Shown here: positions 9,540 through 49,017 of the stretch, piece after piece
Position numbering within the stretch: the first letter of the stretch is position 1
Layout of the letters: each line of letters opens with the position of its first letter
Assembly (NCBI GenBank): GCA_015068935.1
Contig: SVJO01000001.1
Location: 62,001 to 126,000 of the forward strand
Origin: Oscillospiraceae bacterium
GTDB lineage: Bacteria > Bacillota > Clostridia > UBA1381 > UBA9506
Length of the DNA: 64,000 bases
Reading direction: 5' to 3'
Translations under genes and position numbers: made by a program
The notes under the pieces: model-generated
Databases searched by the model: none
The model's input: the letters and a program-made list of their open reading frames with translations, nothing else
Told to the model about the DNA's origin: nothing

Positions 9540-10790
9540 TTACTCTTCCTCTTCGGCTTTTTCGCCCTCTTTAATTATGATTTCTGTAACTCTGTGCGAA
9601 TCAATTCCGGTAATTGTAATTGAAAGATGTTCAAAATCAAATTTATCACCTTTTTCAGGCATTTTTCCAAGCTGTTCCATAACCCAGCCACCTACAGAAA
9701 CTCTGTCTGTCTCAAACTTAATACCGAAAAAGTCGCATAAATCATCAAAATTAACCGAGCCCTCTACCCTGTAGACATGCTCATCAATCTTTTTGAAATC
9801 CTCAACAACTTCGTCATGCTCATCCCATATTTCACCAACAAGCTCTTCTAAAATATCTTCCATTGTAACCATTCCGAATGTTCCGCCGTATTCATCTACA
9901 ACAATAGCTATATGTGATTTATTAGTCTGCAGAATTTTAAGAATGTCATCAATCTTTTCAGACTTTTGAATAAATACAGGCTTTGTCATTATGTCTTTGA
10001 GATTTTTCTTTGTTACACCGTTTGCCGTGAAAAAGTCTTTCAAGTGAATAACTCCGATGATATTGTCAATGCTTCCGTCATATACTAAAAGTCTTGAAAA
10101 ACGTGTTTTAATAAATGTATCAGCAATCTCCTCTTTTGAATCTTCAATAGAAACAGCCTCGATATCAACTCTGTGTGTTAATATATCCTCTGCTTCCATA
10201 TCAGAAAACTCAATTGCATTTCTAATAAGCTCACCGTCATCAGAATCCACGCTTCCGTCCTGTTCAATTTCTTCAACAAGCATTAAAAGCTCTTCCTGAG
10301 ACATTTTTGAGTTGTTTTCAATTTTAAAAATTCTTGACAGCAGTTTTTTCCACAAAGTAAACAAAAAGTTTACAGGTGTTAACAGAAATATAAGTCCTCT
10401 GATTATTTTTGATGAGAACATTGCAAACTGTTCAGGACTGTCTTTTGCAATACTCTTTGGAGATATTTCACCGAAAATCAAAACAACGACAGTAACAACA
10501 ACTGTTGAAATAGTTGCTCCATGCTGCTCGTTGATTTTCATAAACATAACTGTAGCAATTGAGGCAAGAGCAATATTTACGATGTTATTACCTATAAGAA
10601 TTGTTGAAATCAGCTTATCATATTCTTCTGCAAGTTTTAATGCTAACTTTGCTTTTTTATTATCTTCTTCTGCTAATGCTTTAAGTCTCGTTTTGTTTAG
10701 TGATGAAAATGCAGTTTCTGTTGCTGAAAAATATGCTGACATGAAAACAAGCAAAATCATCACAATAGTATACGGAAGTATCGTTTCCAT
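9540..10790 (-). CDS. CNNM/CorC (hemolysin C-like) family transporter with CBS domains
   Basis: DUF21 N-terminus MSAYFSATETAFSSLNKTRLKALAEE; CBS pair; C-terminal transporter-associated VSVGGWVMEQLGKMPEKGDKF. Confidence 0.92.
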   Translation of the reverse strand: METILPYTIVMILLVFMSAYFSATETAFSSLNKTRLKALAEEDNKKAKLALKLAEEYDKLISTILIGNNIVNIALASIATVMFMKINEQHGATISTVVVTVVVLIFGEISPKSIAKDSPEQFAMFSSKIIRGLIFLLTPVNFLFTLWKKLLSRIFKIENNSKMSQEELLMLVEEIEQDGSVDSDDGELIRNAIEFSDMEAEDILTHRVDIEAVSIEDSKEEIADTFIKTRFSRLLVYDGSIDNIIGVIHLKDFFTANGVTKKNLKDIMTKPVFIQKSEKIDDILKILQTNKSHIAIVVDEYGGTFGMVTMEDILEELVGEIWDEHDEVVEDFKKIDEHVYRVEGSVNFDDLCDFFGIKFETDRVSVGGWVMEQLGKMPEKGDKFDFEHLSITITGIDSHRVTEIIIKEGEKAEEEE

Positions 10791-10863
10791 TTAATCCTTT
10801 TCTCCTTAATTTTTAATAAAATTTGTTTAAATTTTCAAATTATAATCAAATTAACACCTTTTT

Positions 10864-11003
10864 AAAACACAAAAAGACACACCTGCGTATTTTTATATAA
10901 ATCCGCAGATATGCCTCATATAACAAATTTACACAAACTCCGGCGTTGTTACTATCGCTCTCGTCAGAATCCATGGATTGTTTCCTCGCTTTCAAAATGA
11001 TAC
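10864..11003 (-). ncRNA. Unidentified structured 5' leader (candidate cis-regulatory RNA) upstream of the CNNM/CorC gene
   Basis: Good promoter on minus strand (see 11010-11038), about 140-nt untranslated leader, hairpin at 10878-10913 (CATATCTGCG/CGCAGGTGTG) followed by TCTTTTTGTGTTTT. Confidence 0.55.
10878..10913 (-). terminator. Leader terminator hairpin upstream of the CNNM/CorC gene
   Basis: 10-bp stem with G-U pairs followed on minus strand by U-rich tract. Confidence 0.6.
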
Positions 11004-11009
11004 ATACAT

Positions 11010-11038
11010 ACTATAACACAACTTTGCCTTTAAGTCAA
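11010..11038 (-). promoter_or_regulatory. SigA-type promoter for leader/CNNM gene
   Basis: Minus strand TTGACT-17 nt-TATAGT. Confidence 0.7.
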
Positions 11039-11108: not shown

Positions 11109-12611
11109 GTGCTGGATATGGGAGAAACCATTCTGACCATGGAGCATATAGAAAAAAGATTCCCCGGAGTTCATGCTCTTAGCGACTGTCATTTTGATTT
11201 ACGTGCAGGCGAGGTTCATTCCATAGTGGGAGAAAACGGTGCTGGAAAATCTACACTGATGAAAATCCTCACCGGAGTTTATAAAAAAGACAGCGGAAAT
11301 ATAACGTATATGGGAAAAAGTTTAGAACCTGAAAATCCACGACACACACAAGATGCAGGAATTTCAATCATTCATCAGGAATTAAACCTTATGCAGCATC
11401 TTTCCGCGGCGCAAAACATATTTATTGGCAGAGAGCCGAGAAAAGCAAAGATATTCACTGATGACAAAGAGATGGTCGAAAAAACCAAAGAGCTTTTTAA
11501 GATGCTAAATCTTAATTTAAGTCCCAGAGCAAAAGTAGCCGACATAACTGTTGCCAAACAACAGATGGTCGAAATTGCAAAAGCTCTCTCTTTTGATTCA
11601 AAAATTTTGATAATGGACGAACCTACGGCAGCTTTGACTGAAAGTGAAATAGCCGAGCTTTTTAAAATTATTGAGTCACTGAAAAAGCGCGGTGTAGGAA
11701 TAGTTTATATTTCTCACCGAATGGATGAACTTATGAAAATAACAGACAGAATTACTGTCATGCGTGACGGAAAATACATTAATACTGTAAATACAAACGA
11801 CGTCTCAAAAGACGAAATAATAAATATGATGGTTGGAAGAACAATCTTTGAAGAGCCCAAAGAAGAAAGCACTGCTCTATCTGATGATGTTGTTCTTTCT
11901 GTTCAGAATCTGTCTGACGGTGGGCTCTTAAAAGACATTTCTTTTGATTTAAAACACGGCGAAATTCTGGGCTTTGCAGGTTTAATGGGGGCAGGCAGAA
12001 CTGAGGTTGCTAGAGCAATTTTCGGTGCTGACAAGAAAAAATCAGGTGACATATTCATTAAAGGAAAGCTGGTAAAAATCAATTCGCCTCAGGATGCCGT
12101 AAAAAACGGAATAGGCTACCTTTCTGAAGACAGAAAACGCTACGGAATGATGGTTGGTATGGATGTTGAAACAAACACAGTTATTGCCTCAATGGAAAAA
12201 TTCAACCGCTTTGGTTTTATAAGTTCAGGCAAAACTGCAAAAGTTTCAAAGGAATACGTAGAAAAACTTAAAACAAAGACACCCGGCATAAGGCAGATTG
12301 CAAAAAATCTTTCGGGCGGAAACCAACAAAAAGTCATTATAGCAAAATGGCTTGTGCGAGACTGCGATATTTTAATATTTGACGAACCGACAAGAGGTAT
12401 TGACATAGGTGCAAAAAGCGAGATTTACTCTCTTCTTACAGAGCTTGCCGCATCGGGAAAGTCAATTATTATGATTTCATCTGAGCTCCCTGAAATTTTA
12501 AGAATGTCAGACAGAGTTGCAGTCATGTGCGAAGGAAGAATAACAAAAATTTTAGACATAAATGAAGCAAATCAGGAAACAATAATGCATTATGCAACAT
12601 TAAGAGAATAG
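11109..12611 (+). CDS. Sugar ABC transporter ATP-binding protein (RbsA/MglA family)
   Basis: Two ABC domains: VGENGAGKSTLMKILTGVY and LSGGNQQKVIIAKWL; initiation context gaaaagaggtgctggatATG, track start 11109 (in-frame alternatives nearby). Confidence 0.95.
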   Translation: MLDMGETILTMEHIEKRFPGVHALSDCHFDLRAGEVHSIVGENGAGKSTLMKILTGVYKKDSGNITYMGKSLEPENPRHTQDAGISIIHQELNLMQHLSAAQNIFIGREPRKAKIFTDDKEMVEKTKELFKMLNLNLSPRAKVADITVAKQQMVEIAKALSFDSKILIMDEPTAALTESEIAELFKIIESLKKRGVGIVYISHRMDELMKITDRITVMRDGKYINTVNTNDVSKDEIINMMVGRTIFEEPKEESTALSDDVVLSVQNLSDGGLLKDISFDLKHGEILGFAGLMGAGRTEVARAIFGADKKKSGDIFIKGKLVKINSPQDAVKNGIGYLSEDRKRYGMMVGMDVETNTVIASMEKFNRFGFISSGKTAKVSKEYVEKLKTKTPGIRQIAKNLSGGNQQKVIIAKWLVRDCDILIFDEPTRGIDIGAKSEIYSLLTELAASGKSIIMISSELPEILRMSDRVAVMCEGRITKILDINEANQETIMHYATLRE

Positions 12612-12614
12612 GAG

Positions 12615-13625
12615 TTGAGCATTTTGAGTGAAAACAGTTCGGGCAAAGCGTCAAAAAAAATGATGAATTTTTCTTCTATAGGCGCTCAAAAACTGATAAT
12701 TTTTTTAACATTAATAGTACTAATTATCATTTTTACAATACTATCACCCAACTTTCTTTTAGTAGATAATATCATTTCCATACTGCTTGCAACTTGTGTT
12801 AACGGACTTTTGGCACTTGGTGTCACGTTTGTTATCATTACAGGCGGAATTGACCTTTCTATAGGAACAGTCATGACTTTTTCAGCTGTAATATCGGGAT
12901 TGTGCGTAACAGGTCTTAACCTTCCGCTATGGCTTGGCAGTATAATATGTATTTTAGTAGGAACAATAATCGGAACGCTTACGGGTCTAATGGTATCACG
13001 TCTGAAAATCCCCGCATTTATTGCAACTTTGGGTGTTATGATGATAACATCAGGACTTTCATTAGTTGTCACAGGCGCGCGCCCTGTTTACTTCCCGAGC
13101 GAATATAAAGAAATTGCAGTCGGTTCGCTCTTTGGTAAGTTAATACCGGGATTTCAGCTCCCTAATGCTGTTTTAATATTATTCATAATGGCGATTATTG
13201 CGAGCATAATTTTAAATAAAACTGTCATGGGAAGATACAATTTTGCAATCGGGTCTAATACTGAAGCAACAAGACTCTCAGGTGTTAATGTTGCCGGCTG
13301 GCTTACAGGAATACATGCTCTTGCAGGTGCGTTTTTTGGTATTGCAGGCATTATTATATCCTCACGTCTCGGTTCAGCACAGCCTGCTATCGGTCAGGGA
13401 TATGAGCTCGAAGCTATTGCAGCAGTCGTAATAGGCGGAACATCGCTTGCAGGCGGTCAGGGTACTATTTCAGGTACTATAATCGGTGCTTTTATCATGA
13501 GTGTTTTAACAAACGGATTAAGAATTGTCGGCGTCGCTCAGGAATGGCAGACAGTTGTTATCGGTGCTGTAGTAATTTTAGCTGTATTTATTGATACGTA
13601 CAGAAGAAAAAAACAAAATATATAA
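12615..13625 (+). CDS. Sugar ABC transporter permease (RbsC family)
   Basis: VTFVIITGGIDLSIGTVMTFSAVI; AVVIGGTSLAGGQGTISGTIIGAF. Confidence 0.94.
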   Translation: MSILSENSSGKASKKMMNFSSIGAQKLIIFLTLIVLIIIFTILSPNFLLVDNIISILLATCVNGLLALGVTFVIITGGIDLSIGTVMTFSAVISGLCVTGLNLPLWLGSIICILVGTIIGTLTGLMVSRLKIPAFIATLGVMMITSGLSLVVTGARPVYFPSEYKEIAVGSLFGKLIPGFQLPNAVLILFIMAIIASIILNKTVMGRYNFAIGSNTEATRLSGVNVAGWLTGIHALAGAFFGIAGIIISSRLGSAQPAIGQGYELEAIAAVVIGGTSLAGGQGTISGTIIGAFIMSVLTNGLRIVGVAQEWQTVVIGAVVILAVFIDTYRRKKQNI

Positions 13626-13647
13626 TTATCAGAAAGGAAAACCATAT

Positions 13648-14631
13648 ATGAAAAAGCAATCAAAAATTCTTTGTATCTCTCTCCTTCTCTGCTTTGTTTT
13701 ATTACTGACAAGCTGCAACAGAGGCGGGCAGTCAGATAACTTAAATGAAATAACAGGTGATAAGCCCTATATTGCAGTTATAGCAAAAGGCTTTCAGCAT
13801 CAGTTCTGGCAAACGGTGAGAAAGGGTGCCGAAATGGCGGCAGAAGATTACGGAGTCCAGATAACCTTCCAGGGTACTGACACTGAATCACAAATTGACA
13901 AGCAGACAGAAATGCTTGATGCCGCTCTTTCAAAAAACCCCGTTGCAATATGTATTGCGGCGCTTGATTCAAAAGCAATCCTGGGCTCGCTTGAGAAGGC
14001 TCATCAAAGAGGCATTCCTATTGTAGGCTTTGATTCAGGTGTTGATTCAGATATTGTTGCTGCAACAGCTGCAACAGATAACAAGGCTGCAGCAGCGCTT
14101 GCTGCTGATAAAATGGCAGAGGCTATCGGCGGCAAAGGCGAAATTGGCATGATTGTTCAGGACCAGACAAGCATGACTGGCAGAGACCGAAGAGATGGTT
14201 TCAAGGAAAGAATTGAATCAAAATATCCCGATATAAAAATTGTCGATATCCAATATGGTGAAGGCGACCACACAAAATCAGCCGACGCAGCAAAAGCTAT
14301 TATATCAGCAAATCCTAATGTAGTCGGAATGTATGGCGCAAATGAAGGCTCTGCGATTGGTGTTGTGCTTGCACTCTCTGAGCTTGGCAAAACAGGTAAG
14401 ATTCAGGCAGTAGGTTTTGACTCAGGCAAACGTCAGATAGATGCAGTGCGCGACGGCGAAATGTACGGTGCCGTTACTCAGAACCCAATACAGATAGGTT
14501 ACAAAGCTGTTGAAGCAGCCTATAAGGCATACAAGGGCGAACAGGTTGAAAAAGAGATTGATACAGGCTTTAAATGGTATGATAAGTCTAATGTAGACTC
14601 TGAAGAAATTAAACAGCTTCTTTATGAATAA
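13648..14631 (+). CDS. Sugar ABC transporter substrate-binding lipoprotein (RbsB family)
   Basis: Lipobox LLLTSCNRGG; periplasmic-binding domain; start re-placed at ATG 13648 behind AGAAAGGA. Confidence 0.93.
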   Translation: MKKQSKILCISLLLCFVLLLTSCNRGGQSDNLNEITGDKPYIAVIAKGFQHQFWQTVRKGAEMAAEDYGVQITFQGTDTESQIDKQTEMLDAALSKNPVAICIAALDSKAILGSLEKAHQRGIPIVGFDSGVDSDIVAATAATDNKAAAALAADKMAEAIGGKGEIGMIVQDQTSMTGRDRRDGFKERIESKYPDIKIVDIQYGEGDHTKSADAAKAIISANPNVVGMYGANEGSAIGVVLALSELGKTGKIQAVGFDSGKRQIDAVRDGEMYGAVTQNPIQIGYKAVEAAYKAYKGEQVEKEIDTGFKWYDKSNVDSEEIKQLLYE

Positions 14632-40634: not shown

Positions 40635-40646
40635 TTTTTAAATATA

Positions 40647-40851
40647 ATAATCCCGCAATGCCGTGTAGATACGATTAATTTTTACCTGCAGATGCAGGTG
40701 GGTATTCTGCCGTTTGCTTTATATGTCCCCTGACCTTATATAAAGGGGGGCGTATATGCCACAAACGAACGCAAATTCCCGTATTAAACGTGTTGGTAAA
40801 TTAAAAATCGCTTATCACGAACACCGCAGGATTTAATGTGTTTGTTCCTAT
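40647..40851 (-). ncRNA. ssrS: Likely 6S RNA
   Basis: Minus strand AATCCTGCGGTGTTCGTGATAAGCGATTTTTAATTTACC...AAAAATTAATCGTATCTACACGGCATTGCGGGATT: ends pair to form a long helix around a central open region; own consensus promoter; no ORF. Confidence 0.68.
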
Positions 40852-48880: not shown

Positions 48881-48899
48881 GAATAAACACACGAAAATA

Positions 48900-49017
48900 T
48901 CGCTCTGTCCTTTTGCCTGAGAGATTCGGCTCTTTTGCCTTGCACCTTCGGCACTCAATTTAATGAGTTCTCCAGAGTCCCCTCAATGTTCGGTCTTAAA
49001 TAATTCCGAACATTTCA
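48900..49017 (-). ncRNA. Glycine riboswitch (apparently single aptamer)
   Basis: Minus GGGGACTCTGGAGAACTC...GTGCCGAAGGTGCAAGGCAAAAGAGCCGAATCTCTCAGGCAAAAGGACAGAG upstream of AGCS gene. Confidence 0.88.

Follow-up and report, generated by a model that had tools for sequence, protein, structure and literature searches.

The window analysed here, a 64,000-nucleotide stretch of an Oscillospiraceae bacterium contig, carries on its minus strand (9540..10790) a gene for a CNNM/CorC-type transporter of 416 aa, which we propose to be the regulated gene of the leader described below. Its product combines a CNNM transmembrane domain (PF01595, 1.3e-50), a CBS pair (PF00571) and a CorC_HlyC domain (PF03471), and its relatives include solved CorC/CNNM structures. 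By family membership the protein is a probable Mg2+ exporter; since the polyamine exporter PaeA is also a member of the CNNM family, Mg2+ is only a putative substrate. The gene is preceded by the Shine-Dalgarno sequence AAGGAGA (10801..10807, minus strand). Divergent from the leader lie sugar ABC transporter-like genes (ATPase, permease and binding protein; 11109-14631, plus strand), and elsewhere in the window we found matches to a single-aptamer glycine riboswitch (48895-48985, minus strand, 58.9 bits) and to 6S RNA (40646-40835, minus strand, 103 bits).

Upstream of the transporter gene, on the same strand, is a sigma-A type promoter, TTGACT-17-TATAGT, at 11010..11038 (-35 at 11038-11033, -10 at 11015-11010, spacer of 17 nt), followed by the Shine-Dalgarno sequence GAGGA (10983..10987), which stands 8 nt ahead of the ATG of a small ORF. 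A first-pass annotation of this DNA had recognised the promoter and a hairpin with a U-rich tail, and both were borne out; its report of about 140 nt without an ORF was wrong, because a Shine-Dalgarno-led frame of 42 codons (10846..10974, minus strand; ATG at 10974, TGA at 10846), encoding the leader peptide MDSDESDSNNAGVCVNLLYEAYLRIYIKIRRCVFLCFKKVLI, runs through the hairpin and the U-tract. Codons 2-8 of this frame form an acidic block, DSDESDS (10951..10971, minus strand), the proposed ribosome-destabilising segment. The hairpin of the intrinsic terminator (10874..10917, minus strand) is strong, with a dG of -21.3 kcal/mol and a stem that covaries in 20 relatives, and its interrupted U-tract, UUUGUGUUUUAA, lies at 10862..10873 (minus strand), also within the ORF. 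The hairpin ends 83 nt before the transporter ATG at 10790, and the leader ORF stops 55 nt before the same gene. The leader RNA is more stably folded than its shuffles (z -3.1) and a -35/-10 pair with a spacing of 16-18 nt recurs in 30 of 37 related leaders, ~30-60 nt ahead of their ATG, so that neither the promoter nor the fold is due to chance.

These relatives were sought in related genomes and in named contigs, by scanning the 320 nt upstream of each CNNM gene for acidic ORFs led by a Shine-Dalgarno sequence. A strict filter found such an ORF ahead of 22 of 120 CNNM genes; among the 24 genes with at least 55% identity to the query, 16 had one. These counts come from related sequences and are therefore not independent. 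The 22 include two ORFs with a TTG start that end where the gene begins (L059, L098) and that we judged spurious. Applied to controls, the filter gave 0.6 hits per set of shuffles and 2 in 449 regions upstream of other ORFs, both of them the same ORF. By hand and by profile search we gathered 37 CNNM leaders from across Clostridia (for example MDTDDGDCNN, MESDDDNANN, MDGDSSEDD and MDDADCDED, as well as MDDADADADC ahead of a distant paralogue); because these were picked partly by eye for the features discussed, counts inside the set are descriptive. As a blind test, we searched 391 genomes of the class with a profile built from the leader peptide alone. All 12 matches covering the N-terminus at E < 0.003, the window included, adjoin a CNNM gene, and those other than the window come from several families outside its order. 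Matches without the N-terminus (e.g. L135, L138) were weak, did not lie beside CNNM genes and were discarded. The leader is thus conserved and tightly linked to CNNM genes. Viral contigs held one full-length CNNM relative and one fragment, and we found no leader at the full-length one. In the 0.99 Mb of the 1.3 Mb own genome that was scanned, the window included, there were 26 acidic Shine-Dalgarno-led mini-ORFs, four of them with an adjacent terminator, the CNNM leader among these. The other three were judged, from their sequences only, to be gene 3' ends or chance, and the CNNM leader appears to be the only convincing unit of an acidic ORF plus terminator in that 0.99 Mb.

An SD-like purine-rich sequence and an ATG are present in all 37 leaders. 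Their first 57 nt are open in frame 0 in 36/37, compared with 17/37 and 2/37 for the other frames. Among the 16 closest leaders the in-frame codon-substitution score was 1.10, against -0.49 (sd 0.45) after permutation of columns, a value reached in 0 of 500 permutations. As judged from these alignments the leader ORF is well supported and under clear coding selection, and we would expect it to be translated in vivo. Nearly all 37 leaders begin acidic: D/E make up 40% and K/R 3% of residues 2-10, against 4.5% and 16% of the remainder. Acidity is retained while the residues themselves drift (MDSDESD, MESDDDN, MDGDSSED, and MDDADADAD before the distant paralogue). The weakly acidic members are L044, L050, L051 and L048, the last of which (MKGDSNGR) has one acidic residue in 12.

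The position of this frame relative to the terminator is similarly constant. A terminator-like hairpin with a U-rich tail is found in 37/37 leaders. In 27 of them the stop codon falls past the U-tract, in 8 it falls inside the hairpin, and in 2 it lies 6 nt short of the 5' arm. A ribosome finishing the ORF would sit on or past the 5' arm of the terminator in every one of the 37, and, if a 15-nt leading edge is assumed, a ribosome at the last acidic codon of the first 12 residues would clear that arm by at least 9 nt, again in all 37. Since the intrinsic terminator lies within the ORF or at its end, completed translation should prevent, not enable, termination.

Based on these findings we propose, with a probability of roughly two in three, that the leader is a ribosome-operated transcription attenuator of a CNNM-family probable Mg2+ exporter, ON at high Mg2+. 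RNA polymerase would start ~30 nt ahead of the leader ORF, and the first 5-9 residues, which are acidic, would tend to make the translating ribosome dissociate, as is known for nascent chains of this type, with a stronger effect at low Mg2+. At low Mg2+ the ribosome would drop off, the terminator hairpin would form and transcription would stop before the exporter gene (OFF). At high Mg2+, or with another ribosome-stabilising cation, the ORF would be completed and the 5' arm occupied or the hairpin traversed; masked by the ribosome, the terminator could not form and the exporter would be made (ON). The ribosome itself, in short, probably senses magnesium and switches the exporter on, in a layout common to dozens of Clostridia. 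In B. subtilis, RNA polymerase leaves the ribosomes behind (PMC7858274, PMC9226507), and masking of the terminator by a ribosome may therefore need a pause.

The closest known counterpart is MgtL, the leader of enterobacterial mgtA, on which low Mg2+ causes the ribosome to drop off at acidic residues (PMC11282234). Both MgtL and the clostridial leader are short ORFs with an acidic start, Pro-rich in MgtL, upstream of a gene for Mg2+ transport, a predicted function in the clostridial case, and in MgtL it is ribosome drop-off on the nascent chain at low Mg2+ that sets transcription termination, as we propose here. However, MgtL controls an importer, and its completed translation leads to OFF via Rho, whereas the leader described here overlaps an intrinsic terminator and its completion would turn an exporter ON. 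This ON-at-high-Mg2+ polarity, the reverse of that of MgtL, suits an exporter. The two systems occur in enterobacteria and in Clostridia, respectively, and share no evident sequence homology. High Mg2+ induces both corC and mgpA in Salmonella, and for E. coli CorC a ribosome-destabilising N-terminus has been reported (PMC12421838). CorC of E. coli and Salmonella (YbeX, MSDDNSHSSD) also has an acidic start, but this belongs to the main gene and not to a leader that overlaps a terminator. Clostridial CNNMs that lack a leader tend, like CorC, to have acidic starts too. When we compared CNNM N-termini across L001-L123, at least two acidic residues were present in the first 7 for 36/86 proteins without a detected leader (e.g. 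MDSDSI, MDDSLS) and for 1/35 with one, a contrast that is confounded by relatedness. These counts fit a destabilising stretch that may be placed either in a leader or in the CNNM gene itself.

Other leaders share parts of this anatomy. The Salmonella mgtQ uORF (PMC8092293) is likewise an acidic mini-ORF that aborts translation and tunes a Mg2+ transporter, but it acts on the initiation of mgtB translation, whereas the clostridial leader overlaps an intrinsic terminator. In the Bacillota, vmlR (PMC9226507) likewise has a uORF and an intrinsic terminator upstream of the gene; it differs in being antibiotic-responsive, in the three codons of its uORF and in its antiterminator structures, which we did not see in the clostridial leaders. 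The M-box (RF00380) is a Mg2+ transporter leader with a conditional terminator, as is proposed here, but the leader has no M-box match, and neither the window nor any of 41 related genomes yielded an M-box. E. coli YoaL is not acidic and was set aside.

The alternative that best survives keeps the same leader-peptide attenuator anatomy and changes its signal, which could be general translation stress, polyamines, EttA-like ABC-F factors or a shortage of aspartyl-tRNA; we consider it unlikely. The ABC-F factor EttA is also required for translating acidic nascent chains (PMC11282234), PaeA, which exports polyamines, is a CNNM relative, and tRNA attenuators use repeated codons. However, trp-type attenuators combine a run of one codon with an antiterminator. 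In the clostridial leaders D/E codons are mixed with those for Ser, Gly, Asn and, at some loci, Pro, which argues against codon specificity, and no antiterminator was found in the consensus fold of 20 leaders. The tight linkage of the leader to CNNM genes also speaks against a signal of this kind.

Much less probable is that the ORF encodes a small protein with a function of its own, possibly as a partner of the transporter, with an incidental overlap of ORF and terminator. A C-terminal motif, AYLR...RRCAFLRF, is conserved in many members, but these residues are what the terminator stem and U-tract encode. Furthermore, members of 12-28 codons (L086, L047, L044) keep just the acidic start and the overlap, and the leader peptide has no protein-family match.

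We regard it as very improbable that a structured ligand-binding RNA, that is, a new riboswitch, controls the terminator. The order of promoter, leader and terminator ahead of a transporter, and the folding of the leader relative to shuffles, would be expected of one, and the first-pass annotation had accordingly suggested a candidate ion-responsive regulatory RNA. A conserved cis-regulatory leader, plausibly ion-responsive, was upheld; a structured ligand-binding RNA was not. The homologous leaders of CNNM genes that the annotation had called for proved to be conserved, with covariation confined to the terminator stem. In the consensus fold from the alignment of 20 leaders this stem is the only conserved structure, with two-sided changes in 8 of 12 pairs, and the alignment contains no covarying aptamer besides it. 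A hairpin suggested earlier as a competitor of the 5' arm, ATATG-AGG-CATAT, is missing from this fold, and its sequence is not kept in relatives (e.g. TATATAAGGCATAC). The leader is also under coding selection, and its 5' UTR of only ~30-60 nt between promoter and ORF leaves no room for an aptamer. Searches of Rfam at gathering and permissive thresholds gave no relevant match for the leader (M-box, yybP-ykoY, NiCo and others), in agreement with the earlier failure to recognise a known class.

Nor do we give appreciable weight to the view that the terminator merely ends background transcription and that the leader is translated without regulatory effect, given that the stop codon is placed in the same kind of position relative to the hairpin in 37/37 leaders and that ORF and hairpin are kept together across several families.

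Attenuation by a ribosome that survives its acidic nascent chain at high Mg2+ thus remains our preferred reading. We lean, by a small measure, towards the broader view that these leaders form a widespread, undescribed clostridial leader-peptide class in which the ribosome is the direct Mg2+ sensor, its survival past the acidic chain antiterminates, and the destabilising stretch appears to alternate in location, being either in the leader or at the N-terminus of the exporter. Our search of the open-access literature turned up no account of a leader like this ahead of CNNM genes in Bacillota. Acidic nascent-chain leader peptides are a known kind; what would be new is a logic inverted relative to MgtL. 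Destabilisation of ribosomes by acidic nascent chains as a Mg2+ sensor has so far been described mainly in enterobacteria, and, if our model is true, Clostridia use it with inverted logic to control an exporter. The model would also offer a simple candidate explanation for the control of CNNM exporters in bacteria that lack M-box riboswitches. In addition, the model needs close coordination of ribosome and RNA polymerase in a Gram-positive lineage, where coupling becomes directly testable.

Several CNNM loci showed other arrangements. Upstream ORFs of an Asp/Pro type that recalls MgtL precede the CNNM genes of L071, L055, L061, L087, L089, L108, L007 and L030, with starts such as MDEPPLPD, MDDPSKRR, MDEPPPSPEP and VDPLPRSR. 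Among them only L071 has a convincing overlapped hairpin; no terminator was detected in several of the proline-type leaders (L087, L089, L007, L030). The L071 leader is the MgtL-like MDEPPLPDNPNDRRRR, its hairpin overlapped by the ORF, and its likeness to E. coli MgtL may reflect convergence. At L015, L021, L022 and L024 the place of the leader, directly before the CNNM gene, is taken by a different small conserved ORF (MKxVTKDMIIRxVL...GMHCLGCPSA). At two loci the CNNM gene is followed closely by an RNase P RNA gene on the other strand (L003, 2782-3123; L004, 2824-3165).
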